Of a stretch of 64,000 nt of DNA, positions 3,871 to 23,131 are shown piece after piece; within the stretch, counting starts at the first letter, position 1; each line of letters starts with the position of its first letter. The translations under genes and the position numbers were made by a program. The stretch is from Halomonas aestuarii (lineage in GTDB: Bacteria > Pseudomonadota > Gammaproteobacteria > Pseudomonadales > Halomonadaceae): positions 1,302,001 to 1,366,000 of the forward strand of contig NZ_CP018139.1 of NCBI RefSeq assembly GCF_001886615.1. The letters run 5' to 3'. The notes beneath the pieces are model-generated. The model did not search any database, was not told the origin of the DNA, and was given only the letters and a program-made list of their open reading frames with translations.

Positions 3871-3948
3871 GTCAGTCTCTCCGTTCGTTGCAACTAGAAA
3901 AGCCGGCGAGTGCTGACTGCCGGCTTACATGCTGTCCTGCGGTATCGC

Positions 3949-5151
<1,203 letters not shown>

Positions 5152-5164
5152 TGAGGATCTCCTG

Positions 5165-5938
5165 TTAGTCGCCGGCGTGCTGGCGTTCGGTGCGTGCCTT
5201 CAGCTCGCGCAGGACTTCGAGCTCGCGCTCGGAGGGCTCTGGGGTGCTCTCGAGCTCGCCGGCGAAACGGATCTCCCAGCCGGTGGCCTCGACCACGTCC
5301 TCGCGGCTGACGCCCGGATGCAGCGAGACCACCGTGAGCTCCTTGGTCTCGGGATCCGGCTTCATCACGCAGAGGTCCGTGATGACGCGAGTAGGCCCCT
5401 TGCCGATGTTCGGCACACCGTCGCGGCCCTTGCCGTCTCGACCGAAGCCCAGGGTGGTGACAAAGTCCACGTCCTTCACGAGGGCCCGCTTGGAGTGCTT
5501 CAGGGTGATGAAGACCTCGCCCGCGTTGGTGGCGATCTCCGGCGCCCCGCCACCGCCCGGCAGGCGAACCTTGGGATCATGGTAGTCGCCGATCAGGGTG
5601 GTGTTGAGGTTGGCGTAGCGGTCGATCTGCGCGGTGCCCAGGAAGCCCACGCTGATCTTGCCACCCTGCAGCCAGTAGCGGAACATCTCCGGCACCGCGA
5701 CCGTGGTCAGGGCCGACTCGCAGAGCTCGCCGTCGCCGATGGAGAGCGGCAGCACTTCCGGCTTGGTCTGCAGGGTGCCGGACTCGTAGATCAGCACCAC
5801 GTCGGGGGCATGGGTCAGGCGCGCCAGGTTGGCCGCCTCGGAGGGCAGGCCGATGCCGACGAAGCAGGTCATGCCGTTTTCGAGTGCCCGGGCGGCGGTG
5901 ACGGTCATCATCTCCGAAGACGTGTACTCGATGCTCAT
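5165..5938 (-). CDS. pcaJ: 3-oxoadipate CoA-transferase subunit B
   Basis: Beta subunit (257 residues) of the enzyme that moves CoA from succinyl-CoA to 3-oxoadipate. The start ATG at 5938 overlaps the pcaI stop (ATGA), so the two subunits are translationally coupled. The catalytic glutamate is expected in IYESG (Glu52), and the glycine-rich [13 protein letters not shown] segment follows. At 276 + 257 residues the pair is longer than Pseudomonas PcaI/PcaJ and resembles the CatI/CatJ (glutaconate CoA-transferase-like) type; this length comparison is from memory of the families. An open frame reads further upstream into pcaI but is not the gene. Confidence 0.9.
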
Positions 5939-6768
5939 CAGGCCTCTCCTCCTGCTTTGTAGACGTTCTCGTCGAGCCACCGGGTGAAGGCGTCGCGGTC
6001 GCGGGCGATAGCATCCCACTCCTTGTAGAAGCGGTTGTCGCGCGGGTAGTAGCCGTGGGCATAGGAGGGAAGCGCGCCCTTCTCGGCCACGGCGATGGCA
6101 TCGATGGCCCAGCCCGGGATGATGCAGGTATTGGGATGGTAGTCTGACTCGACGGTCAGGTCCTCGACGATTTCCTCGACGGTGACGATGCTCTGTCTCG
6201 CCGCCAGCACAGCCTCCTTCTGTACGCCGACGATGCCCTCCACCAGCACGTTGCCGGCCCGGTCGGCCTTCTGGGCATGGACGATGGAGACATCCGGACG
6301 CACCGCCGGCACCGCCGCCAGGCGCTCGCCGGTGAAGGGGCACTCGATGAACTTGATCTGATCGTTGACATTGGGAAGCTCACTGCCCACGTAGCCGCGC
6401 AGCACGGCCAGCGGCAGCCCGGCGGCCCCGGCCTCGAAGGCGCAGGCCATGGCGGCGTGGCTGTGCTCCAGGATCTCGATCTTGCGCGGCCAGCCCTTCT
6501 CCACGGCGTCGCGCAGGCGATGCAGGGAGCCCACGCCCGGGTTGCCACCCCAGGAGAAGATCACCTTCCTCGCGCAGCCCGCGCCGATCAGTTGATCGTA
6601 GATCAGGTCGGGGGTCATGCGAACCAGGGTCAGATCGCGCTTCTTCTGGCGGATCACCTCGTGACCCGCGGCGAAGGGAATCAGGTGGGTAAAGCCTTCC
6701 ATGGCCACGGTGGCGCCGTCCTCGACGTAGCGCGCGACCGCGTCATGCAGGCTGAGAAACTCGGCCAT
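5938..6768 (-). CDS. pcaI: 3-oxoadipate CoA-transferase subunit A
   Basis: Alpha subunit (276 residues) of the 3-oxoadipate:succinyl-CoA CoA-transferase. Seen: EGFTHLIPFAAGHE near the N-terminus, the SWGGNPGVGSLHRLRD segment and PNTCIIPGWAIDAI, all of CatI type. The ATG at 6768 is chosen because an AGAGGCG site precedes it and the protein then begins MAEFLSLHD. It is the first gene of the intact leftward operon pcaI-pcaJ-pcaF-pcaD-(pcaC). Two IclR-type operators lie 64-99 bp upstream, so induction through the local IclR regulator is likely. Confidence 0.9.
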   Translation of the reverse strand: MAEFLSLHDAVARYVEDGATVAMEGFTHLIPFAAGHEVIRQKKRDLTLVRMTPDLIYDQLIGAGCARKVIFSWGGNPGVGSLHRLRDAVEKGWPRKIEILEHSHAAMACAFEAGAAGLPLAVLRGYVGSELPNVNDQIKFIECPFTGERLAAVPAVRPDVSIVHAQKADRAGNVLVEGIVGVQKEAVLAARQSIVTVEEIVEDLTVESDYHPNTCIIPGWAIDAIAVAEKGALPSYAHGYYPRDNRFYKEWDAIARDRDAFTRWLDENVYKAGGEA

Positions 6769-6974: not shown

Positions 6975-7734
6975 TTACTTGCCCTCTAACCAGACGATGG
7001 CACGCTTTACCTGGGCGCGACTGCTACCAAGGTATAAGGCTGGATCACTGGCCCGCTCGAGGCCCGCCCGCTCGACACGCCCCGCCACCTCCTCGTGCTC
7101 CATCAGGACCTCGGCATAGGGACGGTCCGTCAGGCGTGCCGCTTCGGCGGCCTCGGCAATGATGCGCTTGGCGGCGTTCTGGCCCACGACCGGGGCCAGC
7201 TGACGTGAGACCGGCTCGGCCATGATGCCGCCGCCCGCCACCGCCAGGTTGCGCCGCATCGCCTCCGGTTGCACCGCCAGCCCTTCCAGCAGCACCGCGG
7301 TCTGCTCCAGCGCGCCTTCCAGCAGCAGGGCACTGTCGAGCATAGGTGCCCACTCGGCATGCCACTCTCCCAGGCCCCGCTCAAGGGGCTGAGCCGCTGA
7401 ATTGAGGATCACCGTGACATGGCCATGCACCTGGCGGGCCGATCCGCGGATCAGCGCGCAGCGTACCGGATTGCGCTTGTGCGGCATCGATGAGGACTCC
7501 CCCATGCCGGGAGCCACCGGCTCGGCCACCTCGCCGATCTCGGTCTAGCTCAGCAGTGACACGTCCAGGGCCAGCTTCTCGGCGGCGCCGGCGGCGGCAT
7601 CCAGCCCCGTGGGCCTCCTAGACCTCGGCCAGGGCCAGCTCGAAGGCCAGCATGGCGTCGACCATGGCTCGAGCATTGCACTCGGCCAGCGCCTGCTGGC
7701 TCATGAAGGGGTGCTGGATCAGGGCGTCAGGCAT
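6975..7734 (-). pseudogene. pcaB: 3-carboxy-cis,cis-muconate cycloisomerase remnant
   Basis: PcaB closes 3-carboxymuconate to gamma-carboxymuconolactone, a protocatechuate-branch step. From ATG 7734 about 38 codons match the family N-terminus (MPDALIQHPFMSQQALAE, then AMLAFELALAEV) and end at a stop. The sequence then jumps to the C-terminal half: EKLALDVSLL, a stop in place of the next residue, TEIGEVAEPVAPG and the superfamily signature GESSSMPHKRN. A PcaB is about 350-450 residues, so roughly 200 residues are missing inside. The C-terminal frame (6975-7529) stays open for 184 codons but lacks most of the active site, so a working enzyme is very unlikely. Confidence 0.88.
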
Positions 7735-10010: not shown

Positions 10011-10814
10011 ATGGACAAGACTCGACTTGCAGGAAAGAACTGCCTGATCACAGGCGCCGCGCGGGGCATGGGTGCCGCCGTTGCCGAACACTATGCGGCA
10101 CAGGGTGCCAATGTGTGCGTGGCCGATCTCAACACCGACGGGTGCAATGAGGTCGTGGCACGCATCAAGGAGAAGGGTGGCAATGCCATCGCCGTGAAGC
10201 TCAACGTTACCGAGCGTGACCAGATGAAGGCGGCCGTCAAGGCCACCGTCGATGCCTTCGGCAGCCTCAACGTCATGGTCAACAACGCCGGCATCAACAA
10301 GCCACTGATGTTCATGGACATCACGGAAGAAAACTGGCACCAGATCATGGACGTCAATGCCCTGGGTTGCCTGATCGGGATGCAGGAAGCCGCCAGGCAG
10401 ATGATCGACCAGGGCAAGGAGAACGGTCCCTACAAGATCATCAATGTCGGCTCCATCCTGTCCCGCCAGGCCTTCGATGATGTGGTGCCCTACTCCTGCA
10501 GCAAGCACGCCGTGCTGGCGATGATCAACGGCGGCGCCAAGGCGCTGGTGGACCACAACATCACCGTCAACGGCTATGGCCCGGGCGTCGTTCGCACCGA
10601 GCTGTGGGAGCAGCTGGACAAGGACCTCGTCAGCATCGGCAAGTTCGACAAGCAAGGCCAGTCCATGGACGAGCTCGCCGAGAAGATGATCCTGATGAAG
10701 CGCTACTCCTACCCGGAGGACGTGGTCGGTACCGCCTCCTTCCTGGCCAGCCAGGAGTCGGACTACATGACCGGCCAGCTGCTGATGATCGACGGCGGCA
10801 TGATCATGCAGTGA
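10011..10814 (+). CDS. Short-chain dehydrogenase/reductase
   Basis: Classical SDR of 267 residues. Seen: cofactor motif TGAARGMG (residues 14-21), NNAG in the middle, catalytic Ser148, Tyr161 and Lys165 in YSCSK, and a C-terminal MTGQLLMIDGGM. The Asp39 after strand 2 suggests NAD(H) preference. A GAGGTGACACG site precedes the ATG. It faces the leftward catabolic operon convergently and has its own upstream palindrome. The substrate is unknown; an alcohol, polyol or alicyclic diol of the island's pathway is possible. Confidence 0.88.
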   Translation: MDKTRLAGKNCLITGAARGMGAAVAEHYAAQGANVCVADLNTDGCNEVVARIKEKGGNAIAVKLNVTERDQMKAAVKATVDAFGSLNVMVNNAGINKPLMFMDITEENWHQIMDVNALGCLIGMQEAARQMIDQGKENGPYKIINVGSILSRQAFDDVVPYSCSKHAVLAMINGGAKALVDHNITVNGYGPGVVRTELWEQLDKDLVSIGKFDKQGQSMDELAEKMILMKRYSYPEDVVGTASFLASQESDYMTGQLLMIDGGMIMQ

Positions 10815-10839
10815 GGCCACCGGCCTCCCGGCGGGTGGC

Positions 10840-12615
10840 TCAGTAGTATTCCCTGTCGCGCATCAATCGATCGGCCCTGTCCTGCGCAATGGACAGGGCC
10901 TTCTTGATGGAGCGGCGCCCGTCGAGCACCTCGAATATCTCGTGCCCGGCAATGCCGATCAGCTCCGTGATCCCCGGCACCGGGGGGCGTGGCCAGGCCT
11001 GCAGGATGTCCTTCCGCGCCATCTCGTCCACCACGCCGATGAGCGGTGAAAGCGAAGATACCTCCGGGTCGCGACTGACACTGAAGCGCGGGGTGACCAG
11101 GCTCCCGTTCATGACATAGAGCTTCGACAGGCCGGCCGAGGTCAGCGTCTTCAGGGCGCTCCAGGCGGCTTCGATGCGTGCCTCGGAGAGGTTGGCCGGA
11201 ATGGCCAGCGCATAGCCGCCGATCGGGGTGATCGGGGCACCATGGTTACCGACCGGGTGGGGCAGGTACCCGGTATTGCCCCAGGCAGGCGACGTCTGGT
11301 TGAGCTCGAACAGGGGGGCCAGCAGCGTGTAACTGTAGGCCATGCAGGACTCACCCGAGGCATAGGACCTGGCACGCTCGTACCAGGCCATGTTGAGGAT
11401 GTTCGGCGGCGAATATTTCAGGATATCCAGCATGTATTCACAGGCGCGAAAGGCCGCATCCGTCTGGAACATCGGCCGATACTCCTCGCCTGACACGTGC
11501 TGGAAGTCATAGCCGTTCCGGGTGCGCCGAAGGTTCATGATCGGCTGGCCGAACTTCGCCATCAGGAAGGTGAACGTATGGCCCAGCGGCGTTCCCCTGG
11601 CGGCGTTCCAGGCGATGCCGTAGCGCCCCTTGCCGGGATCATGCAGTCGCCTGGCGACCTTGATCAGTTCCTCGGTGGTCGTCGGGGGCGCCAGGTGTTC
11701 CCGCTCGAAGATATCCTTTCGATAGCACAGCAGCTCCGGCGTCGTCTGGACCGGAATGCCGTACTGCCTGCCGGCATACTGCGAGCTCTGGATGGCCATG
11801 GGGTGGAAATCGGACAGGTCATGGCCGTCCCGCGCCAGCAGGCGGTCCAGCGGCAGCAGCATGTCCTGGGATGCCAGCTCCCCGAACCAGGGGAGGTCAC
11901 AGGCGATGACATCGTACCGGGAGTTGGGCAGGCAAGCGTTGGAGAGGATCTCCGCGCGTAGCCCGTCGATCGACTTCGCCTTGTTCTTGATCTCCACCCC
12001 GAAGACCGCCTCCAGCTGCCGCTTGAGGTTGTGCATGGCCATGAAGGTCGGGTCGGCATGGACCAGGACGCGCAGTCCCCCTCTCAGCTCGAGGCGCTGG
12101 GAGAGCACGGCGGGCGGCGGGATGACGGCGGAAGTCTCGTCGACCTTTCCCAGCAGGATGCGACTGTCCGGGCCGGCGCCCGCCTCCACCCCGAAGGTGT
12201 CACCCAGCAGGGACTTGATCCGGAGGGCATAGGCTTCCCACTCGTCGATCAGCGCCGCAGACGGGTGGAGGGACACCGTCTTGCCCGACTTGGTCCGGGG
12301 ACGCGACAGCAGCAGCCCCCGCTTGAGGAGGCTCTCGATGCCGCGCTTGGCCGTGCCATAGGACAGGCTGGAGGCATCGGCCAGCGAGGTGGGCGTCGTG
12401 AGTCGTCCCGCCAAGTGGTTGCGCATGATGTGGATCATCATGCGCATCTCCCGATACCCATGGGTCATGGAGAGCGCCTGCTCGGTTTCCTCCTCGAGCT
12501 GCTCGATGAAATCGATGAACCGCGCAAGCTCCGTGTTCGAGAGCTTCGACATGGGAGTCTGGGGCAGCGTGTCGTAGGGTCCCTCCGGGTACTGCACACA
12601 CTGATCGTCGATCAT
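10840..12615 (-). CDS. HTH / extracellular-solute-binding-domain fusion regulator
   Basis: Protein of about 591 residues (603 if TTG 12651 is used; ATG 12615 is preferred, with GAGGTGAGA before it). Residues about 55-120 look like a MarR-type winged helix-turn-helix (MMIHIMRNHLAGRL, then SLADASSLSYGTAKRGIESL and a basic wing RPRTKSGKT). From about 178 to 560 the chain resembles a family-1 solute-binding protein (LRVLVHADPTFMAMHNLKRQ; QYGIPVQTTPELLCYRKDIF; PIGGYALAIPANLSEA). There is no signal peptide or membrane helix, so the binding domain should sense its ligand in the cytoplasm. It is the last gene of the leftward catabolic island and convergent with the SDR gene. Function as its transcriptional regulator is inference. 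Confidence 0.8.
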   Translation of the reverse strand: MIDDQCVQYPEGPYDTLPQTPMSKLSNTELARFIDFIEQLEEETEQALSMTHGYREMRMMIHIMRNHLAGRLTTPTSLADASSLSYGTAKRGIESLLKRGLLLSRPRTKSGKTVSLHPSAALIDEWEAYALRIKSLLGDTFGVEAGAGPDSRILLGKVDETSAVIPPPAVLSQRLELRGGLRVLVHADPTFMAMHNLKRQLEAVFGVEIKNKAKSIDGLRAEILSNACLPNSRYDVIACDLPWFGELASQDMLLPLDRLLARDGHDLSDFHPMAIQSSQYAGRQYGIPVQTTPELLCYRKDIFEREHLAPPTTTEELIKVARRLHDPGKGRYGIAWNAARGTPLGHTFTFLMAKFGQPIMNLRRTRNGYDFQHVSGEEYRPMFQTDAAFRACEYMLDILKYSPPNILNMAWYERARSYASGESCMAYSYTLLAPLFELNQTSPAWGNTGYLPHPVGNHGAPITPIGGYALAIPANLSEARIEAAWSALKTLTSAGLSKLYVMNGSLVTPRFSVSRDPEVSSLSPLIGVVDEMARKDILQAWPRPPVPGITELIGIAGHEIFEVLDGRRSIKKALSIAQDRADRLMRDREYY

Positions 12616-12682
12616 TCTCACCTCGAGGACCTCGATGGAATCGATATCCAAAGTACCCCTCGACTAGCCTGCCGAGCAACTG

Positions 12683-13420
12683 TTACCCGGCACCATCGAC
12701 GATCAGCCGAATGCCCAGCAGGATCAGCAGGGTGAGAATGACCCGAAAGAACAACTCCCCGCTCAGACGCTTCTGGATGACGAGCCCCAGGCGGACCCCG
12801 AGCCAGGCGACGGGGATCATCAGCAGGGCCACCGTCAGGTTCTCGACGCTGAGCAGGCCGAGCAGCCCATAGGGCACCAGCTTGACGAGGTTGGTGGCGG
12901 CCAGGAAGACCACGGCGGTGCCCAGGAACTGTTCCTTGGAGAGCCGGCACTGCAGCAGGTAGAAGTTCAGCGGCGGGCCCCCGGCATGGGCGATGAAGCT
13001 GGTGAAACCGGCGATCCCGCCACAGAGTCCGCCGATCCAGCCCGGCATCACGCGACCACGGAAGGGCTTGAACAGGCCCCACAGGCCGAACAGGATCGAG
13101 AAGATGCCCAGCAGCACCTTGAGCAGGTCATCATCGAAGAGCCCGTAGGTCAGATAGCCGACGGCGACGCCCAGTATCGCCGGGGGGAACATCAGCCACA
13201 GCAGCGAGCCGGCACGATGTCGCCACCAGGCCCGCAGGCTGAAGACATCCATGACGATCAACAGCGGCAGCATGACGGCCACGGCGAAGGTCGGGCTCGC
13301 CTTCAGCGAGATCAGGGGGACGGCCACCACCCCGACGCCCCCGGCGAACCCCGACTTCGAGATGCCGGTGATCAGTACCGCCACGACCATCAGGACAATG
13401 AACTGCCAGTCATACACCAT
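12683..13420 (-). CDS. TauE/SafE-family permease
   Basis: Membrane protein of 245 residues with about eight hydrophobic segments and the family features GISKSGFAGGVGVVAVPL near the N-terminus and GGPPLNFYLLQ in the second half. The ATG at 13420 gives a start directly before the first helix; upstream codons read without a membrane signal. Family members export sulfite or sulfonates or carry organic acids. It sits 121 nt after the nitroreductase gene in the island; no substrate can be assigned. Confidence 0.85.
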   Translation of the reverse strand: MVYDWQFIVLMVVAVLITGISKSGFAGGVGVVAVPLISLKASPTFAVAVMLPLLIVMDVFSLRAWWRHRAGSLLWLMFPPAILGVAVGYLTYGLFDDDLLKVLLGIFSILFGLWGLFKPFRGRVMPGWIGGLCGGIAGFTSFIAHAGGPPLNFYLLQCRLSKEQFLGTAVVFLAATNLVKLVPYGLLGLLSVENLTVALLMIPVAWLGVRLGLVIQKRLSGELFFRVILTLLILLGIRLIVDGAG

Positions 13421-13541
13421 GTGACGCCTCGTGCTTTCCGGAGGAAATGAAAAAGGGCCGTGCGAACACGGCCCACATCCAAAGAACATGCAGAGTCCGG
13501 CGGCCGCACCGGATCAACGAGGCGGCCGCCGGTCGGACCTG

Positions 13542-14132
13542 TCAGAGGACCTGGCAGACCTCATCGAACTCGAAACGATCCTGGCGCGGGAAGAGCGCCG
13601 AGGCATCGCCGTATCCCAGGTTGCAGAGGAAGTTGCTCTTCACCTGGCCATCGGGGAAGAACTCCTCATCCACGGCCGCGTTGTTGAAGCCGGACATCGG
13701 CCCGGCATTCAGTCCCAGCGCGCGAGCGGCCAGGATGAAGTAGCCCCCCTGGATGGAGCTGTTGCGAAAGGCCGTGGTATTGATGAAGTCGGTCTTGCCC
13801 TCGAACAGCGACTTGGCATCCTTGTTGTGGGAGAACATGCGCGGCAGATGCTCGTAGAATTTCGTGTCGTAGCCCAGCACGGCCACCACCGGCGCCTTCA
13901 TGGTCTTCTCCTGGTTACCGGGAAGCAGGGCCGGCTTGAGCCTTTCCTTGGCTTCCTGGCTCTTCAGGAAGATCACGCGAAGGGGCTGGCAGTTCATGGA
14001 GGTCGGGCCGAAATGCATCAGTCGATACAGCTCGCGCAGCTTTTCCTCGCTGACATCCTGATCCGTCCACACATTGTGGGTGCGTGCCTCGGTGAACAGG
14101 GTCTCGACCGCATGGTTGTCAATGACAGTCAT
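13542..14132 (-). CDS. Nitroreductase-family enzyme (RutE/HadB-like)
   Basis: FMN-dependent reductase of 196 residues in the RutE/HadB branch: MHFGPTSMNCQPLRVIF near the N-terminus, an FRNSSIQGGYFILAARALGL helix and GPMSGFNNAAVDEEFF. RutE reduces malonic semialdehyde to 3-hydroxypropionate; other members reduce quinones, enones or nitro compounds. The Ser-Met-Asn-Cys-Gln flavin-binding stretch is intact. It follows the dioxygenase gene by about 50 nt in the operon, so it may act on a quinone- or enone-like intermediate; this is inference. Confidence 0.82.
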   Translation of the reverse strand: MTVIDNHAVETLFTEARTHNVWTDQDVSEEKLRELYRLMHFGPTSMNCQPLRVIFLKSQEAKERLKPALLPGNQEKTMKAPVVAVLGYDTKFYEHLPRMFSHNKDAKSLFEGKTDFINTTAFRNSSIQGGYFILAARALGLNAGPMSGFNNAAVDEEFFPDGQVKSNFLCNLGYGDASALFPRQDRFEFDEVCQVL

Positions 14133-14182
14133 CTAGCGTTCCTCTTTCTGGTAATGGATGGTTTCGTCTTGTTGCGATGCGA

Positions 14183-15046
14183 CTAGCGACTCGCCTTCAG
14201 GCCGAAGTCGTATGTCAGATGGCGGTAGGGCACTTCCATCGACCGTCCATCCGGTGCCTTTCCTGGCGGCAGCAACTCATACTCCTTGACCAGGGAATCC
14301 TTGACGCCGAACACGGCATCGGAGTCCAGATAGGGGTCGTCCTCGGCGAAGACCTGGGTCACCAGGGTCTCGTAGCCCTCGGCCATCAGCATGAAGTGCA
14401 CGTGGGCGGGCCGGTAGGGATGGCGTCCGGTGATCTCCAGCATCTTGCCCACGGGGCCGTCGGTGGGGATCGGATAGGGCGAGGGAGTCACCGTCCAGAA
14501 GGCGTATCGCCCCTGATCGTCGGTGGTGAACCGGGCCCGCAGCGAGGCACTCTCGAGCTCCTTCTGGACGTCATAGAAGCCTTCACTGTCCGACTGCCAG
14601 ACGTCGACGACGACATTGGCCAGTGGCTCGCCGCGTTGGTCGTGGACCCGCCCCTCCACGAAGAAGGGCTCTCCCTCGACGTTCCAGTCGATGGACTCGC
14701 CCTGGGCGACCTCGGGCGGGTCGGCGACATAGAAGGGGCCCAGCACCGTGCTTTCCGACACCATCGGGTCCGACGTATGGTGATTGATGGCGTCGACCAG
14801 CATCGTCACGCCCAGGGTATCGGAGAGCAGGATGAACTCCTGGCGCTCATCGTCGCACATCTGGCCGGTCCGGGTCAGGAAGTCGATGGCCTGGGTCCAC
14901 TCCTTCTCGGTGGGCTCCACCTCGCGGAGGAAGGCGTGCAGGTGGCTCACCAGGCCGTTCAGGATGGTCTTCAGTCGCTCATCCTGACACCCGGAGAACT
15001 CCTCGATCACGGCGTCGGTGATGTTCTCTGCATTCAGGTTGCGCAT
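14183..15046 (-). CDS. Hydroxyquinol 1,2-dioxygenase (intradiol)
   Basis: Non-haem Fe(III) intradiol dioxygenase of 287 residues that would open hydroxyquinol (1,2,4-trihydroxybenzene) to maleylacetate. Iron ligands can be read as Tyr158 in EGFYDV, Tyr191 in SPYPIP, and His215 and His217 in RPAHVHF. The STVLGPFYV and PIPTDGPVGKML segments are of the hydroxyquinol/chlorocatechol type, and the N-terminal helical domain is present. ATG 15046 is the start; extra upstream codons overlap the previous gene. A maleylacetate reductase in the same operon supports hydroxyquinol as the substrate; catechol is the main alternative. Confidence 0.85.
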   Translation of the reverse strand: MRNLNAENITDAVIEEFSGCQDERLKTILNGLVSHLHAFLREVEPTEKEWTQAIDFLTRTGQMCDDERQEFILLSDTLGVTMLVDAINHHTSDPMVSESTVLGPFYVADPPEVAQGESIDWNVEGEPFFVEGRVHDQRGEPLANVVVDVWQSDSEGFYDVQKELESASLRARFTTDDQGRYAFWTVTPSPYPIPTDGPVGKMLEITGRHPYRPAHVHFMLMAEGYETLVTQVFAEDDPYLDSDAVFGVKDSLVKEYELLPPGKAPDGRSMEVPYRHLTYDFGLKASR

Positions 15047-15050
15047 GGCA

Positions 15051-15959
15051 TTACCCCTTTGTGGGCTCGATGGCCGACAGCCCAGAGAGGCGCTCGGTGT
15101 GATGGACGGTGGCGATGTAGTCGTCCTCACCGTGCCCCGTGCCGATCAGCGAGGTGTAGGCCTCGCGCATCTGCGCGGCGAGGGGCACCGGCACGCCGGC
15201 GCCATGGGCACAGCCGAGAATCAGGTCGAGATCCTTGGCCATCTGGGCGGCAGAGAACGTCGAGGTGAAGTCCCGCTCGCGCAGGGGCGGCACCTTGTAC
15301 TGGACCATCGGCGAGCCCACCGCGCTGTCGGCGACCAGCTCGAGCATGTCGTCCCAACCGATGTTGCCCTTGCGGGCCAGGGTCAGGGACTCGCCCAGCA
15401 TCCCGGCGCTGACCGCGATCATCAGGTTGATCGCCAGCTTGGCGTAGCGACCCTGCTCCTCGTCGCCCAGCCAGTACTGGGCCTTGGTGAAGCTCTGCAT
15501 GACCGGAACGGCCGCCTCCAGGGCCTCCCGCGGGCCGGAGACCATGGCCGACAGGGTGCCGGCCTCGGCGGCGACCGGGTTGCCCGAGACCGGGCTTCGC
15601 AGGTAGGCGATGCCCCGCGCCTCGGTGGCCCGGGCCACCTGCGCGGAGGCCTCGATGCTCACGGTGCTGGTCTCGATCAGCGTGGCGCCGGGCGCCATGT
15701 GAGCGATCAGCTCCCCGGCCCCCAGGCAGAGCCCCAGCAGGGCCCGGTCATCGGGAATCGAGACCAGGACCAGGGAGCAGCCGTCGACGGCGGAGGCCAG
15801 GTCCTGGTGGACGACGATGCCGGCCTGCTCGGCCAGGGCCATGCGCTCGGCGCTGAGGTCGAACCCCTGCACCGCGTGCCCCGCGGCGGCGATGCGGGCC
15901 GCCATGGGCAGGCCGAGCTTGCCCAGTCCCACCCAGGCCACCTTGTGTGTGGTTGTCAT
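15051..15959 (-). CDS. NAD(P)-dependent beta-hydroxyacid dehydrogenase family protein
   Basis: Protein of 302 residues of the 3-hydroxyisobutyrate/2-hydroxy-3-oxopropionate dehydrogenase family. Seen: the dinucleotide motif VGLGKLGLPMA at residues 10-20, the substrate segment SPVSGNPVAAEAGTLSAMVSG at about 122-142 (the family pattern is usually APVSGG) and the catalytic Lys174 in YAKLAINLM. Its ATG overlaps the amidohydrolase stop by 4 nt, and it ends 4 nt before the dioxygenase start, so it is firmly in the operon. The substrate is unknown. Confidence 0.85.
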   Translation of the reverse strand: MTTTHKVAWVGLGKLGLPMAARIAAAGHAVQGFDLSAERMALAEQAGIVVHQDLASAVDGCSLVLVSIPDDRALLGLCLGAGELIAHMAPGATLIETSTVSIEASAQVARATEARGIAYLRSPVSGNPVAAEAGTLSAMVSGPREALEAAVPVMQSFTKAQYWLGDEEQGRYAKLAINLMIAVSAGMLGESLTLARKGNIGWDDMLELVADSAVGSPMVQYKVPPLRERDFTSTFSAAQMAKDLDLILGCAHGAGVPVPLAAQMREAYTSLIGTGHGEDDYIATVHHTERLSGLSAIEPTKG

Positions 15960-17323
15960 TGGGCTGTCTCCTCGTGTTGTTGCCGTTTCTGCAGCTCGGC
16001 GTAGATGCGATGGCCGGACGCCTCCAGCTCGCTCAGGCCATCGGCGACATCGGCCAGCAGCCGACCGTGTCGCTTGTGGAACTCCCCCGCCACCATGACG
16101 CTGTCGACGTTGGCGAGACTCGCCTGCATGACGACGCTGGACACCGGGTCGCTGACCGGCTGCATGTTGAGCAGGTTGCTGTCCAGCAGCACGATGTCGG
16201 CCTGCTTGCCGGGCGTGAGACTGCCGATGCGGTCCTCGAGCCCGAGGGCGCGAGCGCCGTGGAGGGTGATCCACTCCAGCGCCTCGCGGGTGCGGATGGT
16301 CGAGGTGGCGGGGATGGTGCCCTGCTCCCGGCGCGAGGCGTCGTTGTCCAGCGAGCGCTGCATGCCCAGGGCCGCGCGCGCCACGGCGAACATGTCGCCC
16401 GAGATCACCGACTCGAGATCCACCCCCAGCGACACGACGCCGCCATGGCGGCGGACATGGCCGGTGATCGGGAAGCCGTGCCCCTGGGTCATCTCGTTCT
16501 CGGGAGCGATGGAGAAGGTCACGCCCTGCGCGCAGAAGCGGGCCAGCTGACCATCATCCAGGCTCTGGCCGTGCACGATGTTGATGTCCGGCCCCAGCAG
16601 TCCGCGCTCCTCGATGACGTCCCAGCCCCCGGGACTCACGGCCTGGCCGCCGCCCTGGTGCATGGAGGCCACCAGGCCGAACTCCTTGGCGAGCTCGAAG
16701 TCGTGCAGGGAGACGTCGAGGGTCGAGTAGTGCGGGCCCAGGATCGCGAGACCCAGGGTCACGCGCCCCTGCCGATCCGCCAACGGCCCGGCCAGCAGTC
16801 TCTCGACTTCGCTGCGGGGATGGGGAATCTCGCTGAAGTGGGGCTGGCCGGGCTTGGGGTCCGGCTTGGGAGAGCCGTGGAAGAAGACGGCGCGGATGCC
16901 CGACTCCTGCAGCCCCCTGACGGCGGCATCGGTATGCGCCGGCGTGGGGTTGTTATGACACCAGTCGCCCAGGGTGGTGGCACCGCAGTTGAGCTGGTTC
17001 AGTGCGCCCAGGCGGGTCGCGACATGGATGTCCTCGGGGGTGAACAGCGTCGCCAGGCCGCGATGCACGTGACCGAAGTATTCGAGCAGCGTCCAGTTGG
17101 CGGCGACCCCGCGCAGGGCCGTCTGCCAGGTATGCATGTGGGCATTGACCAGCCCCGGGATGAGGATGCCGCCGCGACAGTCGACGACCTCGGCACCCTC
17201 GGCGGACAGGTCATGCCCCACGGCCAGGATGCGGTCGTCTTCCACCAGGACCTGGCCCGAGGTCAGGTCCCCGATGTCCGGGTCGAGGGTCAGCACGGTG
17301 GCATTGGTCAGCAAGGTCTTCAT
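15956..17323 (-). CDS. Metal-dependent amidohydrolase (AtzB/TrzN/guanine-deaminase-like)
   Basis: Cytoplasmic amidohydrolase of 455 residues. Metal ligands of the mononuclear subgroup can be read: His62 and His64 in NAHMHTW, His222 in ASMHQGG, His251 in IVHGQ and Asp302 in GVDLESVISGDMF. Relatives deaminate or dechlorinate N-heterocycles (guanine, 8-oxoguanine, S-adenosylhomocysteine, s-triazines). Its presence suggests that the island's substrate carries an amino, amide or halogen group on a ring. It overlaps its neighbours by 4 nt at both ends, so translation is coupled. Confidence 0.85.
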   Translation of the reverse strand: MKTLLTNATVLTLDPDIGDLTSGQVLVEDDRILAVGHDLSAEGAEVVDCRGGILIPGLVNAHMHTWQTALRGVAANWTLLEYFGHVHRGLATLFTPEDIHVATRLGALNQLNCGATTLGDWCHNNPTPAHTDAAVRGLQESGIRAVFFHGSPKPDPKPGQPHFSEIPHPRSEVERLLAGPLADRQGRVTLGLAILGPHYSTLDVSLHDFELAKEFGLVASMHQGGGQAVSPGGWDVIEERGLLGPDINIVHGQSLDDGQLARFCAQGVTFSIAPENEMTQGHGFPITGHVRRHGGVVSLGVDLESVISGDMFAVARAALGMQRSLDNDASRREQGTIPATSTIRTREALEWITLHGARALGLEDRIGSLTPGKQADIVLLDSNLLNMQPVSDPVSSVVMQASLANVDSVMVAGEFHKRHGRLLADVADGLSELEASGHRIYAELQKRQQHEETAQ

Positions 17324-18399
17324 GCGTCGGTGGCCTCCAGGGTTTCGGGACGACGGCCGGCATAGGCATCGTCCAGCAGCCGGTGGATGCCCTTGGCCTC
17401 GATCTCGCGGGGATTCCAGTAGGGGTTGGCGGTGGCGATCTCCGTGGCCCGGTCGATGTCGCCCTCCTTGAGGCCGATATCACGCAGGGCGAGGGGGGCC
17501 CCCACGGACCGCGCCAGGTCGTAAAGCCCCGCGGCGGCATCCTCCGCGCCCAGCGCCCGGGCGATGCGCGCCATCGCCTCCGGGGCGGCCTCGGCGTTGT
17601 AGGCCACGGCATGGGGCAGCACGATGGTGTGGGTCTCGGCATGGGGCAGGTCGAAGGAGCCACCCAGGGTGTGGCAGAGCTTGTGATGCAGCGACATCCC
17701 CACCGAGCCGAGACAGGCGCCGCACAGCCAGGCGCCATAGAGCGCGTCGGAGCGCGCGTCGACGTCTTCTGGGGTGCCGGCGATCGTCGGCAGGCTGCGC
17801 GCCAGGGCCGCGATCCCCTCCTCCGCCATCATCGAGACGATCGGGTTACGATCCTTGGCATAGAGGGCCTCCACGGCATGCGCGATGGCATTGATGCCGC
17901 TGGTGCCCGACATGCCCACGGGCAGCCCGAGCGTCAGGTCGACGTCATAGATGACCGTCTCGGGCAGTACCTTGAGGGTCCGCTGGGTGGTCTTGAGGCC
18001 GTCCTTCGTCTCCCCGAGGATCGGCGTCATCTCGGAACCGGCGTAGGTGGTGGGAATCACGATCTGAGGCAGGTCGGCACGCAGGGCGATCGCCTTGCCG
18101 AGCCCGATGGTGGACCCGCCCCCGATGGCCACGACGCCGTCGGCGCCCAGCGAGGCCAGCACGCGCATCGCCTCCTCGGTGGTCTCCACCGGGGTATGCA
18201 TGCGGGCCCCGGCGAAGACATCGGCCCCCAGTTCACCGAGCTGGTCCAGCACCTGGCGTGCCTGGCCTTCCTGCTGGGGCGTGGAAAGCACCAGCACCCG
18301 TTGGCAGCCCAGCGCCTGGACCTCTTCCGCCACCCGGGCCAGGGTCCCCTGGCCGAAGATGACCCGGGACGGCAGGCCATTGTAGGTGAATGGCATCAT
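17320..18399 (-). CDS. Maleylacetate reductase
   Basis: Iron-type alcohol dehydrogenase family protein of 359 residues that reduces maleylacetate to 3-oxoadipate with NAD(P)H. Maleylacetate-reductase features are clear: AIGGGSTIGLGKAIAL for the cofactor, PTTYAGSEMTPILGE and HHKLCHTLGGSFDLPHAETH. The start is the first of two adjacent ATGs (18399, 18396) after GAGGACA. It is 40 nt downstream of the ABC ATPase gene. Its product, 3-oxoadipate, is the substrate of PcaIJ encoded about 11 kb away in this window. Confidence 0.92.
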   Translation of the reverse strand: MMPFTYNGLPSRVIFGQGTLARVAEEVQALGCQRVLVLSTPQQEGQARQVLDQLGELGADVFAGARMHTPVETTEEAMRVLASLGADGVVAIGGGSTIGLGKAIALRADLPQIVIPTTYAGSEMTPILGETKDGLKTTQRTLKVLPETVIYDVDLTLGLPVGMSGTSGINAIAHAVEALYAKDRNPIVSMMAEEGIAALARSLPTIAGTPEDVDARSDALYGAWLCGACLGSVGMSLHHKLCHTLGGSFDLPHAETHTIVLPHAVAYNAEAAPEAMARIARALGAEDAAAGLYDLARSVGAPLALRDIGLKEGDIDRATEIATANPYWNPREIEAKGIHRLLDDAYAGRRPETLEATDA

Positions 18400-18439
18400 G
18401 ATGTTGTCCTCGTTGGTTGGGTGAGCACCAAGATGGGCA

Positions 18440-20014
18440 TCAGGTGACGGGCCGATCGGCGGACGCATCGGCACCGGTCACGTACTGCCCGGTGATGGCC
18501 TGCACCAGCGCATCCTCGGAGACCGCATCGCCGTCGAACTCGGCGGTCACCTTCCCGTCGTACATGGCGATGATGCGATTGCTGACGCCCAGGACCTCGG
18601 GCATCTCCGAGGAGATCACCAGGACCGCGTACCCGGTCCTGGCCAGGTCCTTGATCAGGGCATGGATCTCCGCCTTGGAGCCCACATCGATGCCGCGGGT
18701 CGGCTCATCGAGGATCAGCAGCTTGGGATGGGTGTGCAGCCACTTGCCGATGACGATCTTCTGCTGGTTGCCGCCGCTGAGGTTGCCGACCTTCTGTCGC
18801 CAGCTCGGCGTCTTGATCTTCATCGCCTGCTGATACTTGTCGTAGACGCTCTTCTCGGCAGCGGGCTTCATGAAGCCGTTGGTGGAGACGGTCTCCAGGC
18901 CCGCGAGGGTCATGTTGTCGCGACAGTTCATCCCGAGGATCAGCCCCTGGTCCTTGCGATCCTCCGGCACCAGCGCGATCCCCTGGGCGACCGCATCGTG
19001 GGTGGAATGCAACCGGGCGACCTGGCCATCGAGCAGAATCTCGCCTGCCGAGATCTTGCGCAGGCCGAAGATGGTTTCCGCCACCTCCGAGCGCCCCGCT
19101 CCGACCAGGCCATACATGCCGACGATCTCGCCCTTGCGGACGTTGAAACTCACGTCACTGAATACCCCGTCGACGGTGAGGCCACGGAGCTCGAGCATGT
19201 TCTCGCCGAAGTCCTTCGGCTTGCTGGCATGGTCGAGCTCGAGGCTGCGGCCGATCATCAGCTTGGTGACTTCGTCCTCGTTGGTGTCGGCGGTGTTCAC
19301 CGTGCCGTTGTACTCGCCGTCCCGGAGCACCGAGATCCGCTGGGAGAGATGGAAGATCTCGTCCATGCGGTGGGAGATGTAGACGATGCCCACCCCCTGC
19401 TCGCGCAGGGTATTGATGATCTCGTAGAGAACCGGTTTCTCGTGGTCGGTCAGCGACGCCGTCGGCTCATCGAAGACCACGATCTTGGGGGTGAAGACGA
19501 GCGCCCGGGCGATCTCGACCATCTGCTTCTTGGCGATGGAGAGTTCGCTCACCATGGCCTTCGAACTGAAGGAGCACTTCAGGCGGTCGAGGATTTCCGT
19601 ACTCTCGCGGTGCAGGGTCTTCCAGTCGACCCGGTTACCCCACTTCTTGGGGAGGCTGCCCAGGAAGATGTTCTCGGCCACGGACATCTCCGGCACCAGC
19701 GACTGCTCCTGGTGGATCAGCACGATGCCGCTCTTCTTGGCCTCCTTGGGGTTCTCGAAGACCTTCTCCTCCCCCTCGAGCAGAATCTGGCCACCGTTGG
19801 GGGTGTGCTTGCCGGCCAGCACCTTCATCAGCGTGGACTTGCCCGCACCGTTCTCGCCCAGCAGGGCATGGACCTCGCCTGCCCGGACGTCGAGGCTGAC
19901 CTTGTTGAGCGCGATCACGCCCGGGAACTTCTTGGTGATCTCGACCAGGGAGAGGATGGGAGTTTCCCCGTGTGCAGACGCTCCTGATGTGTGTGTCGCA
20001 GCTGCAGTGCTCAT
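18440..20014 (-). CDS. Ribose-type ABC importer ATPase (RbsA-like)
   Basis: Double ATPase of 524 residues. The first nucleotide-binding domain has Walker A LLGENGAGKST (about residues 51-61), signature LSIAKKQ and Walker B VVFDEPTASL. The second has the degenerate loop GLVGAGRSEVAE, signature LSGGNQQKIVIGKWL and Walker B LLILDEPTRGID. This is the CUT2/RbsA layout. The ATG overlaps the permease stop by 4 nt. It energises uptake by the two permeases and the binding protein upstream. Confidence 0.93.
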   Translation of the reverse strand: MSTAAATHTSGASAHGETPILSLVEITKKFPGVIALNKVSLDVRAGEVHALLGENGAGKSTLMKVLAGKHTPNGGQILLEGEEKVFENPKEAKKSGIVLIHQEQSLVPEMSVAENIFLGSLPKKWGNRVDWKTLHRESTEILDRLKCSFSSKAMVSELSIAKKQMVEIARALVFTPKIVVFDEPTASLTDHEKPVLYEIINTLREQGVGIVYISHRMDEIFHLSQRISVLRDGEYNGTVNTADTNEDEVTKLMIGRSLELDHASKPKDFGENMLELRGLTVDGVFSDVSFNVRKGEIVGMYGLVGAGRSEVAETIFGLRKISAGEILLDGQVARLHSTHDAVAQGIALVPEDRKDQGLILGMNCRDNMTLAGLETVSTNGFMKPAAEKSVYDKYQQAMKIKTPSWRQKVGNLSGGNQQKIVIGKWLHTHPKLLILDEPTRGIDVGSKAEIHALIKDLARTGYAVLVISSEMPEVLGVSNRIIAMYDGKVTAEFDGDAVSEDALVQAITGQYVTGADASADRPVT

Positions 20015-20970
20015 ACCTGCACCCCCTTGGAAGACTTGACATTGATCTGCTGGTCGATGATCAGCACGGTGATCAGGATCGCCCCGAGGATGACCAGCAC
20101 GTAGAAGGCCGGCACCTGCATCATGTTCATCCCGTTGCGCAGGACCCCGATGGCCAGCACGCCACCCAGGGTGCCGGTGATGCTGCCGTAGCCCCCGGTG
20201 AGCTTGGTGCCGCCGAGCACGACGGCGGTGATGGTCCAGAGTTCGTAGTCCCGACCGAGGTTGGGCGTCGAGGCCCCCATCTGGGTGGCCAGCAGGACAC
20301 CGGCCAGGGCCGCGAAGAAGCCGACGATCATGAAGTTGATCATCATGTTGCGGCCGATCCGGATACCGGCATCCAGGGCCGCCTCGGGGTTGCCCCCCAC
20401 GGCGAAGGTGTTGCGGCCATGACCGGTCTTCTTGAGCACCAGGTGCATCGCCAGGGTGCAGAGCAGGAAGATGATGGCCAGCACGGGGAAGGGGCCGATG
20501 GTGCTGGCACCGAAGTCAGAGAAGGCGAAGTTGCTGGCGTAGAAGGACTGTTCTTCGGTGTAGACGAAGATCAGCCCCCGCACCCCGATCATCGCACCCA
20601 GGGTGACGATGAAGGCGTTGACCCCGGTCTTCCAGACCAGCAGGCCATTGAGGGCACCCAGCGCCACACCCGTGGTGATGGCGACCAGCACCGCCAGGGT
20701 CAGGCTGTACTCCTGCAGGCCCACCGAGAGGGACGCCGCCAGACCCAGGGTCGCCCCCACGGAGAGGTCGATGTTGCCGTTGATCATCACGTAGGTCATG
20801 CCGAGGGCGATCAGCCCGATGGTGGACGTCTGGACGAGGATGTTCGTCAGGTTACCCACCGACAGGAAGTAGTCGGACATGACGCTGAAGAAGACGGTGA
20901 TGACGATGACGAAGATCCAGATCGGCTGAATGGCCGCTCCGCCGCTCATGAAACGTTTCATATCGATCAT
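20011..20970 (-). CDS. Ribose-type ABC importer permease 2 (RbsC-like)
   Basis: Membrane permease of 319 residues with about eight to ten helices. Seen: MTYVMINGNIDLSVGATLGL and FAVGGNPEAALDAGIR, both RbsC hallmarks, and VVLGGTKLTGGYGS. The start is ATG 20970; the longer upstream frame reads through the preceding permease gene. It lies 11 nt after permease 1. Two different RbsC-like subunits probably form a heterodimer. Confidence 0.92.
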   Translation of the reverse strand: MIDMKRFMSGGAAIQPIWIFVIVITVFFSVMSDYFLSVGNLTNILVQTSTIGLIALGMTYVMINGNIDLSVGATLGLAASLSVGLQEYSLTLAVLVAITTGVALGALNGLLVWKTGVNAFIVTLGAMIGVRGLIFVYTEEQSFYASNFAFSDFGASTIGPFPVLAIIFLLCTLAMHLVLKKTGHGRNTFAVGGNPEAALDAGIRIGRNMMINFMIVGFFAALAGVLLATQMGASTPNLGRDYELWTITAVVLGGTKLTGGYGSITGTLGGVLAIGVLRNGMNMMQVPAFYVLVILGAILITVLIIDQQINVKSSKGVQV

Positions 20971-20981
20971 GGTGTTCCCCC

Positions 20982-21992
20982 TCAGGAGTGGCGGGTCAGC
21001 AGATGCTTGCGCTTGTTGGCAAGATCCAGCCATACCGCGAGGATGATGATGACCCAGGTCACGAGCCACTGGGTGTAGTAGGGGTAGCCCAGCAGCAGCA
21101 GGCCGTTCTGGATGAAGCCAAGGATCAGCACGCCGATGACCGTCTTCCAGATACTGCCGGCGCCGCCCAGCAGGCTGGTGCCGCCGAGGATGATCCCGGC
21201 CAGCACGAGCAGCTCGTAGCCCTGCCCCACGTTGTTCTGGGAGCCCATCACCCGCGAGCCGAGCACCAGGGCGGCACAGGCCACACAGAAGGCCGAGATC
21301 AGGTAGGTGCTGAACACGCACCAGTTCTTGCGAATACCGGAATAGACGGCTGCCACGGGATTGCCCCCGATGGCGAAGATACGCCGTCCGTAGCCGGTGA
21401 AGGACATGACGACCTGCACGATGATGGCCAGCAGGGCGAAGATGATGACCGGTACCGCGATGCCCAGCAGGTAGCCCTGCCCGAACACGCTGAACCAGGT
21501 CTCGCTCTGATTGGCGATGTCGACGTTCTGGCCACCGCTGTAGATCAGCACCAGGCCCTGGATCGCCGAGAGCATCGCCAGGGTGACGATGAGCGAATTG
21601 AGCCTCATGAACCCCACCAGGAAGCCGTTCACGGCCCCGAGCATCAGGGTCAGCGCGAACATCACCAGGATGGCGCCGACCGGGCCGATCTTGTCATGGA
21701 GATCCACCACCAGGACGGTGGAGAACGACAGCATCGATCCCACCGAGAGGTCGAGGTTCCCGCCGATGATCACCACGGTCACGCCGACCGCGATGATGCC
21801 GATGATCGAGGCCTGTCGAACCACCGTCATGATGTTCGACTGGGAAAGAAACTGTTCGGAAAACAGCGAAAATGCAAACATGCAGATCAGGAAGAACACC
21901 AGGATTCCCTGGGCCGATAGGAAGTTCAGGAGACCGGCCTTGTGTTTCTTGCTGAGCATGAAGCCTTGCTTGGTCTGTTCTGCAGAAGCCAT
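20982..21992 (-). CDS. Ribose-type ABC importer permease 1 (RbsC-like)
   Basis: Membrane permease of 336 residues. GGNLDLSVGSMLSFSTV, FAIGGNPVAAVYSGIRKN and IILGGTSLLGGAGS show the RbsC family. ATG 21992 follows AGGTGAG; the open frame upstream is not used. It is separated from the binding-protein gene by 200 nt that contain a strong hairpin, which may lower expression of the membrane parts relative to the binding protein. Confidence 0.92.
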   Translation of the reverse strand: MASAEQTKQGFMLSKKHKAGLLNFLSAQGILVFFLICMFAFSLFSEQFLSQSNIMTVVRQASIIGIIAVGVTVVIIGGNLDLSVGSMLSFSTVLVVDLHDKIGPVGAILVMFALTLMLGAVNGFLVGFMRLNSLIVTLAMLSAIQGLVLIYSGGQNVDIANQSETWFSVFGQGYLLGIAVPVIIFALLAIIVQVVMSFTGYGRRIFAIGGNPVAAVYSGIRKNWCVFSTYLISAFCVACAALVLGSRVMGSQNNVGQGYELLVLAGIILGGTSLLGGAGSIWKTVIGVLILGFIQNGLLLLGYPYYTQWLVTWVIIILAVWLDLANKRKHLLTRHS

Positions 21993-22150
21993 GTCACTCA
22001 CCTGTATGGGCGCAACCTTGTTCCGAAGGTCACCGGATGTCCGTCCAGTGAGCTGACCTCCACGATACGGCGTCGATGCCGGAGAAAAGGGCAGAGCACT
22101 GCGGGACCATCCACCATGGCCAACGGACTGTCTTTGAAGAAGCACCAGAG

Positions 22151-22176
22151 CGCATGAGGCCCGAAGGCCTCATGCG
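22151..22176 (-). terminator. Intercistronic hairpin after the binding-protein gene
   Basis: Perfect 11-bp stem CGCATGAGGCC (22151-22161) with GGCCTCATGCG (22166-22176) and tetraloop CGAA. It begins about 17 nt after the stop of the binding-protein gene in the direction of transcription. No T run follows, so it more likely stabilises the upstream mRNA or partly attenuates than fully terminates. Confidence 0.75.
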
Positions 22177-22192
22177 ACTCGGCGGGGGACCT

Positions 22193-23131
22193 TCAGAACA
22201 CCGGCTTGTCGAACTCGGAGATATTGTCGGCCGTGATCTTGGGGGTCTCGAAGAAGTTCATCTTCGGCACCTCCTTGCCCTCCAGGACATCGAGTGCCGT
22301 CTGGAGCGCCGCCTCGGCGTCATCGACCGGGGACTGGTAGATGGAGCCGTAGTACTCGCCACGCTCGATGGCCTCGTAGCCCACGGCGAAGTTGGTGGCG
22401 CCGATGAAGGCGATATCCCCCGCCCTGCCGGCACTCTTGGCCGCGTTCAGCGCGCCGACGCCCATGTTGTCGTCACCGGAATAGACACCATCGATGTTGT
22501 CGTACTTGGTGAGGAAGTTCTCCATGACCCGCTGGGCCTTCTCGCGGTTCCAGTCCGCGGGCTGGGTCTCGAGGATCTCGACGCCGGGACAGGCCTCGGC
22601 CAGCCGCTCCTCGAAGCCCCCGGAGCGCTCCATGGCCGTGGTATAACCGGGCTGCCCGGCGATCTGGACGATCTGCCCCTCACCATCGAGGGCATCGCAC
22701 ATCATCTCGGCGGAAGAGGCGCCCTGCTGGACGTTGTCGGGACCCGAGAAGGCGGCGATATACTCCATGCCCGCATCGGCAATCTTGGAGTTGGTCACCA
22801 CGACCGGGATGCCCGCCTGGTGGGCCTGTCGAATGGCGGGGATGACCGCCTGGCCGTTGGTGGGCCAGATGATGATCGCATCGACCTGCTGCTGGATCAG
22901 GTTGCGAACCTGGCCGATCTGGCGCGCCACATCGCCGCCGGCATCGAGGACGACGACGTCGACGTTCTCGTTTTGTGCAGCGGCATTTTCGAAGGCGCTT
23001 TCATAGGTGGTCTGGTAGCTGTCGACGCCGACATTGTTCTGGGTGATGCCGATCCGGTAGGTCTCTTCCGCGTGGGCAAGACCCGCCGAGAGCATCATGA
23101 CACTGGTGGCTAGCGCTGTTTTGTAGAACAT
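22193..23131 (-). CDS. Ribose-type ABC importer periplasmic binding protein (RbsB-like)
   Basis: Substrate-binding protein of 312 residues with a 21-residue signal peptide ending GLAHA. The mature part shows the sugar-binding Rossmann pattern: YRIGITQNNVGVDSYQTTYES, VVLDAGGDVARQIGQVRNLI and YSGDDNMGVGALNAA. Family ligands are pentoses, hexoses, polyols, cyclitols and autoinducers. First gene of the leftward operon. Its linkage to aromatic-ring enzymes suggests a non-sugar or glycosidic or cyclitol ligand; that is inference. Confidence 0.9.
   Translation of the reverse strand: MFYKTALATSVMMLSAGLAHAEETYRIGITQNNVGVDSYQTTYESAFENAAAQNENVDVVVLDAGGDVARQIGQVRNLIQQQVDAIIIWPTNGQAVIPAIRQAHQAGIPVVVTNSKIADAGMEYIAAFSGPDNVQQGASSAEMMCDALDGEGQIVQIAGQPGYTTAMERSGGFEERLAEACPGVEILETQPADWNREKAQRVMENFLTKYDNIDGVYSGDDNMGVGALNAAKSAGRAGDIAFIGATNFAVGYEAIERGEYYGSIYQSPVDDAEAALQTALDVLEGKEVPKMNFFETPKITADNISEFDKPVF

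Follow-up and report, generated by a model that had tools for sequence, protein, structure and literature searches.

A locus of the salt-loving bacterium Halomonas aestuarii joins, in one operon, a sugar-type importer to genes for the cleavage of an aromatic ring. The locus lies in a window of 64,000 nucleotides, positions 1302001-1366000 of a 3.54 Mb genome in a single contig. Eleven minus-strand genes follow one another from 23131 down to 10840 and, with a facing plus-strand gene for a short-chain dehydrogenase/reductase (SDR), form a 12-gene unit. Among its predicted products are a CUT2 ABC importer, a hydroxyquinol 1,2-dioxygenase (HQDO), a maleylacetate reductase (MacR) and an amidohydrolase (AHyd). 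The genes named in a sequence-only reading were all found where it had placed them, and its operon list holds for those genes but lacked two more, one for a membrane protein of TauE type and one whose product carries an SBP_bac_1 domain. The best single reading of the unit, which we hold at just short of even confidence, is that the imported compound is an alicyclic, polyol-like ring that is aromatised to hydroxyquinol and then cleaved.

We compared the ring-cleavage proteins with solved structures and family models. The dioxygenase (14183-15046, minus strand, like the other 10 genes of the operon proper) carries Dioxygenase_N (PF04444, 3.5e-31) and Dioxygenase_C (PF00775, 1.4e-42) domains. 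Its nearest solved structures are hydroxyquinol 1,2-dioxygenase 1tmx (8.6e-82), PnpC and another three of the intradiol type, among them two that bear the name (chloro)hydroxyquinol dioxygenase (8r2x, 1e-76; 8r2w, 2.9e-65). The best catechol enzyme, 2azq, matches at 3.3e-36, and the protein reaches none of the three (chloro)catechol equivalog cut-offs. Its assignment as an HQDO, nearer to hydroxyquinol than to catechol enzymes, is well supported by these comparisons. MacR (17320-18399) shows full-length likeness to solved maleylacetate reductases (3jzd, 3.2e-135; 3hl0, 2e-132; 3w5s, 1.1e-131), the last two of which carry that name. The nearest solved structures thus bear out both enzymes as first proposed, and the predicted route from hydroxyquinol through maleylacetate to 3-oxoadipate is well supported. 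The onward step, 3-oxoadipate feeding PcaIJ and PcaF in the same window (3949-6768, minus strand), stands in part. PcaF exceeds its cut-off (TIGR02430, 683 bits versus 597), whereas PcaJ and PcaI are CoA-transferase subunits by Pfam (CoA_trans, 3.4e-46 and 2.3e-20), the PcaJ candidate lying far below its own NCBIfam cut-off and the PcaI candidate having no NCBIfam match. Among the other pca genes of the window, a pcaB-like reading frame (6975-7529, minus strand) is a C-terminal piece only, which matches a cycloisomerase model of 453 positions from 269 to 445.

The operon opens with the gene for a periplasmic binding protein of RbsB/polyol type (22193-23131; Peripla_BP_4, 2.8e-60), followed by permease 1 (20982-21992; BPD_transp_2, 3.2e-32), permease 2 (20011-20970; BPD_transp_2, 5.7e-42) and a double ATPase of AraG/RbsA/XylG type (18440-20014) that falls short of the cut-off of each sugar equivalog listed. 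With a Peripla_BP_4 binding protein, an RbsA-type double ATPase and BPD_transp_2 permeases, the predicted importer is strongly supported as a sugar/polyol-type CUT2 system. The usual cargo of CUT2 importers is sugars and polyols. The best solved relatives of the binding protein are 4rsm and 5hko, both from M. smegmatis, and 2ioy, and ribose-binding proteins are among its nearest in sequence. Aligned with E. coli RbsB, it has N-S for D89-R90, D for N190 and T for D215, positions that we take to be ribose contacts, and keeps R141 and Q235. An ordinary ribose importer is therefore unlikely; the RbsABC-type importer of the sequence-only reading retains its CUT2 class and two permeases but not its ribose-type pocket. 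Relative to known CUT2 sugar and polyol importers (Rbs, polyol, myo-inositol), the operon differs in its two permease genes, in the changed ribose-contact positions and in its link to ring cleavage. The gap between the binding-protein and permease 1 genes holds a stem-loop (22145-22180, minus strand; fold of 22135-22195 at -36.3 kcal/mol, z -6.07), and a hairpin after the binding-protein gene is a common means of obtaining more binding protein than permease. Genes overlap by 4 bases at three pairs (20011/20014, 17320/17323 and 15956/15959).

Next, we explored the conservation of the unit, using HQDO as a single protein query against a species genome collection and taking the best 80 of 379 loci, 35 with an HQDO of at least 70% identity and 45 with a more distant one. 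All 12 genes, each at 50% identity or more, are present at 31 of the 35 closer loci, and the contigs of the remaining four end in or near the operon. Thus, the gene grouping is not due to chance. The nearest loci among the best 80 of 379 belong to Halomonadaceae. Two of the 31 complete loci are from Marinobacterium, where a second SDR gene lies between those of the binding protein and the permeases and an SDR copy of 84% identity stands downstream of TauE. A plasmid of Skermanella rosea carries a closely similar set, in which TauE is not annotated and a ThuA protein, of a family named for trehalose utilisation, is added. It also encodes a 3-oxoadipate:acetyl-CoA acetyltransferase (469.5 bits versus a cut-off of 350), which agrees with 3-oxoadipate as the product.

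The pairing of importer and hydroxyquinol genes recurs in a second set of loci. AHyd, at 50% identity or above, is found at seven of the 45 distant loci (Xanthobacter, two Aquabacter, two Bosea, Azorhizobium and a Rhizobiales metagenome-assembled genome, MAG). All seven have a full-length CUT2 ATPase, compared with two of the 38 loci without AHyd. At E 1e-100, AHyd occurs in 2 of 274 genomes sampled from the class and in 8 of 398 from the phylum, with the genome studied here counted in both, and seven AHyd genomes of the phylum sample belong to one family (f207). These seven genomes, the seven distant loci and one plasmid record (L088) give 15 rhizobial loci, all of which encode MacR, AHyd, a beta-hydroxyacid dehydrogenase family protein (HIBADH), HQDO, a CUT2 binding protein and ATPase, and an FAD_binding_4 oxidase. 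A Dabb protein and a YciI protein are each present in 14 and an FMN reductase in four, while RutE, TauE, the SDR and the SBP_bac_1 regulator have no match in any of the 15 stretches.

We built trees for a selection of 33 ATPases, 54 HQDOs (from 95 loci) and 31 AHyd proteins, with long branches flagged in all three. Forcing the Halomonas and rhizobial sets together into one clade lowers the log-likelihood by 53 for the ATPases (approximately unbiased test, p-AU 3.75e-5) and by 113 for the HQDOs (p-AU 3.55e-57). Neither protein is monophyletic across the two sets, which indicates that the coupling of importer and hydroxyquinol genes arose at least twice. On a Paraburkholderia plasmid (L086), AHyd is joined to yet another HQDO, together with RutE, MacR and a GMC oxidase. 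AHyd and HQDO have thus been brought together more than once, and twice with a CUT2 importer, which argues for one shared pathway. The YciI protein (for example L096, 1181-1468) is present at 18 loci alongside CUT2 or Liv-type importers; by analogy with TftG of the 2,4,5-T pathway, a YciI-like dehydrochlorinase, it possibly has a role in ring elimination.

Known hydroxyquinol pathways make hydroxyquinol with an ordinary ring hydroxylase. Profile searches found no ring hydroxylase family among the 12 operon proteins, and the claim that such an enzyme is lacking also extends to the flavin types tested in the genome, where only UbiH-like proteins appeared. HpaB_N has no match in the genome. FAD_binding_3 has 15, of which two are near full length and both UbiH-like. 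Acyl-CoA_dh_2 has six, three of which read as acyl-CoA dehydrogenase-like, the other three being judged on length alone. Among 30 operon-bearing relatives, HpaB_N exceeds its cut-off in one, on a short frame with a stop, and five have neither an FAD_binding_3 protein at E 1e-32 nor an HpaB_N match, with at most 47 candidates scored per genome out of up to 82. In these five relatives and in H. aestuarii itself, the flavin hydroxylases covered by the searches seem to be dispensable. Since no hydroxylase is recognised, the importer may bring in a ring that is not aromatic and becomes so before cleavage. The operon shares HQDO, MacR and the route to 3-oxoadipate with the known hydroxyquinol-pathway system, as well as a RutE/HadB-type reductase as a possible quinone reductase; in place of a recognised hydroxylase, it has the CUT2 importer, the amidohydrolase, the beta-hydroxyacid dehydrogenase and the SDR. 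The ring hydroxylase of resorcinol/hydroxyquinol (gra-type) clusters likewise has no counterpart among the 12 proteins. It also differs from inositol (iol) catabolism, with no IolG-type dehydrogenase or IolE-type dehydratase among its proteins.

AHyd (15956-17323) belongs to the PRK08204 group (NF006056, 584.6 versus a cut-off of 391), for which the NCBIfam model has no name beyond 'hypothetical protein'. It shares its fold with adenosine deaminases, 8-oxoguanine deaminase-type enzymes and TrzN/AtzA. Across 24 aligned rows, H62, H64, H222, H251 and D302, which presumably act as the HxH, H, H and D metal ligands, are invariant. Three residues after the third His, where an HxxE motif would place what we take to be a catalytic Glu, all 24 rows have Gly (G225), whereas the deaminase-like 3hpa has Glu at the aligned position. 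One more distant paralogue, among rows of less than 81% identity, has Met there. AHyd is thus a metal hydrolase that is unlikely to deaminate in the usual way, and the change from Glu to Gly weakens its description as a deaminase-like enzyme, or an aminocyclitol deaminase, even with the metal ligands kept. Its neighbour HIBADH (15051-15959; NAD_binding_2 and NAD_binding_11) has tartronate semialdehyde reductase 1vpd as its best solved relative (1.9e-37). AHyd is accompanied by three unrelated kinds of alcohol oxidoreductase: the SDR in the window (10011-10814, plus strand; acetoin/polyol-dehydrogenase-like), FAD_binding_4 proteins (L097) and GMC oxidases (L086, L087). Because such partners recur, we place alcohol oxidation before AHyd, which is proposed to act by elimination or hydrolysis on the ketone so formed.

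The RutE-like protein (13542-14132) is 52% identical to E. coli RutE and above the malonic semialdehyde reductase cut-off (NF003768, 296.6 bits versus 152). Its gene is the sole copy found in the genome, and no other rut-type gene accompanies it in the operon, by comparison with the rut operon of E. coli. Genes of this type recur in the neighbourhood of HQDO, with varying gene order: in Halomonadaceae, Marinobacterium and Skermanella, and also in Paraburkholderia (L086), Zeimonas (L083) and a MAG of Burkholderiaceae (L069). A role as semialdehyde reductase is doubtful given this company of HQDO rather than pyrimidine genes. UniProt places RutE together with HadB of chlorophenol pathways. From its gene company, a 2-hydroxybenzoquinone reductase is the simpler and more likely reading.

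We propose that the CUT2 transporter imports a small polyol-like ring compound, on which an alcohol would first be oxidised, by the SDR here and by FAD-linked or GMC oxidases in relatives. AHyd, perhaps with HIBADH, would then help the loss of water or another group, so that aromatisation proceeds by elimination with no hydroxylase, and the RutE-like flavin protein may re-reduce any 2-hydroxybenzoquinone. HQDO would convert hydroxyquinol to maleylacetate, MacR would reduce this to 3-oxoadipate, and the Pca enzymes would yield acetyl-CoA and succinyl-CoA. Removing two H2O from deoxyinosose (C6H10O5) gives hydroxyquinol (C6H6O3), and a quercitol-type cyclitol would therefore fit exactly. The earlier suggestion of a cyclitol or aminocyclitol survives in its first half: a polyol suits the importer class, and the Glu to Gly change gives an aminocyclitol no preference over a nitrogen-free polyol. 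The most complete form of the proposal is an oxygenase-free entry in which a saturated cyclitol, such as quercitol or deoxyinosose, is imported, oxidised, aromatised by a metal-dependent eliminase of amidohydrolase fold and then cleaved; we consider this possible but rather doubtful.

Comparison with other HQDO-MacR loci provides precedents of a kind. On plasmid pRM41A of Sinorhizobium (S. meliloti) Rm41 (L093, 5553-13537), HQDO and MacR are again present, and the annotated neighbours shown include no ring hydroxylase. The locus differs from the window in its Liv-type permeases, type II dehydroquinase, KstD-like desaturase and TIM-barrel protein, along with SnoaL-like and enolase-family proteins, and AHyd-, HIBADH- and RutE-type genes are not annotated there. 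The desaturase is related to oxocyclohexene-carboxylate dehydrogenase (795 bits versus 758 for PRK12843). With this set of partners, the locus is an even clearer candidate than the window for hydroxyquinol made from an alicyclic acid. In Cupriavidus sp. LEh25 (L084, 1088-14767), HQDO, Dabb and MacR genes lie between a CUT2/Gfo-Idh/TIM-barrel set, whose TIM barrel is weakly QuiC-like, and an SDR with an IolG-type inositol dehydrogenase (388.7 versus a cut-off of 355). Such dehydratase- or cyclase-like, KstD-like and IolG-type partners lend credibility to hydroxyquinol arising from an alicyclic compound, though no one of them is proof of it in the window. The alicyclic precursor that the sequence-only reading had put forward is thus favoured by the lack of a hydroxylase in the operon, by the repeated coupling of CUT2, HQDO and AHyd and by alicyclic-type partners elsewhere, and is still unproven.

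Several observations weigh against an alicyclic precursor. The operon has no known dehydratase family, and the aromatising role proposed for AHyd draws on the absent Glu and on gene company. AHyd relatives of 47% identity adjoin FAD monooxygenases and alpha/beta hydrolases (L089, L090), which fits aromatic substrates. The binding proteins of the Halomonas and rhizobial sets are about 25% identical and differ in their pocket residues, so that they possibly have different ligands. On the Paraburkholderia plasmid, AHyd and HQDO occur with no CUT2 importer among the annotated neighbours, and the inositol and hydroxyquinol genes of Cupriavidus may be two adjoining operons. The negative result of the genome scan covers flavin-type hydroxylases, with Rieske, P450 and copper enzymes not searched for, and Phenol_Hydrox gave no match in a search whose positive control was equally silent. 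Strong FAD_binding_3 proteins are present in 25 of the 30 operon-bearing relatives.

This last count, together with the mode of the known pathways, favours a ring hydroxylase encoded elsewhere, of resorcinol or 4-hydroxysalicylate type, with the importer bringing in a phenol or its glycoside. We consider this unlikely: the near-full-length FAD_binding_3 proteins of H. aestuarii are only UbiH-like, HpaB_N has no match, the three Acyl-CoA_dh_2 proteins that were read look like acyl-CoA dehydrogenases, five relatives have neither a strong FAD_binding_3 nor an HpaB_N match, and the operon proteins include no glycosidase family. The main rival, plausible though on balance somewhat improbable, is that a masked aromatic is imported, a methoxy, amino or acyl derivative of hydroxyquinol or hydroxybenzoquinone. 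AHyd would unmask it by hydrolysis, much as TrzN and AtzA hydrolyse groups off electron-poor rings, RutE would reduce the quinone, HQDO would cleave the ring and the dehydrogenases would clear the side chain. Such a substrate sits poorly with two separately derived CUT2 systems joined to the same core, given their normal cargo, and leaves the three kinds of alcohol oxidoreductase partner hard to account for. Moreover, AHyd has Gly where TrzN has Glu; we presume that this is the position and role of TrzN E241, and solved variants of TrzN carry E241Q in their structure titles. A merely shared promoter for unrelated importer and hydroxyquinol functions would accord with the generic CUT2 annotation, which does not fix the ligand, and is very improbable, since the set is kept at 31 of 35 loci and the same pairing recurs with importers and HQDOs of other lineages.

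The two genes added to the operon encode a TauE/SafE-type membrane protein, proposed as an anion exporter (about 12683-13420, start codon uncertain; PF01925, 2.8e-29), and a 603-residue protein (10840-12651) with an SBP_bac_1 ligand domain at residues 244-507 (PF01547). In the Burkholderiaceae MAG (2966-5657), HQDO, RutE-like and TauE-like genes lie together, a grouping which suggests a part for TauE in hydroxyquinol use and not in sulfite handling. The 603-residue protein is kept in Halomonadaceae, Marinobacterium and Skermanella (mean column identity 77%, 11 rows). Its N-terminal part, which has no Pfam match, reads as helix-turn-helix-like, and the fusion is a putative ligand-sensing regulator.

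Elsewhere in the genome, a second hydroxyquinol-type dioxygenase gene (L106, 9324-10178, at 2.83 Mb), 47% identical to the operon HQDO at the protein level, lies near what reads as an integrase-like gene, with no MacR beside it in the 20 kb examined. Just before the window (L107, 3712-12182), there is an apparent tandem duplication of genes that read as ring-dioxygenase small and large subunits and a catechol-type dioxygenase, in which two 162-residue proteins agree across the 90 residues compared.

We considered further substrates and looked for published descriptions. Sorgoleone, prompted by L089, a locus from a sorghum isolate in which AHyd adjoins an FAD monooxygenase, was set aside after the literature yielded nothing usable, as were mycosporine amino acids and pinitol, which had been raised from chemistry alone with no evidence. 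The acetosyringone pathway was also set aside: the genes listed around asdA encode alpha/beta hydrolases, a VOC protein and a transporter, with no mention of 'amidohydrolase' (PMC12911418). Neither hydroxyquinol nor quercitol is mentioned in an inositol survey (PMC9430895). The searched literature, limited to portions of open-licence papers and so weak ground for an absence, holds no description of the operon or of a route from cyclitol to hydroxyquinol.

The operon is a variant of the hydroxyquinol pathway with a conserved importer that lends itself to testing. Even if the imported compound is a masked aromatic, the operon is conserved and its importer defined, so that a ligand screen can reveal the substrate. 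If the precursor proves to be alicyclic, the operon would provide a hydroxylase-free entry point into aromatic catabolism, the PRK08204 amidohydrolase group would gain a reaction open to testing, and cyclitols of plants or algae would gain a fate via 3-oxoadipate. Should the oxygenase-free reading be true, the burning of sugars as aromatics, with the same core served by two separately derived importers, would be a recurrent bacterial strategy.

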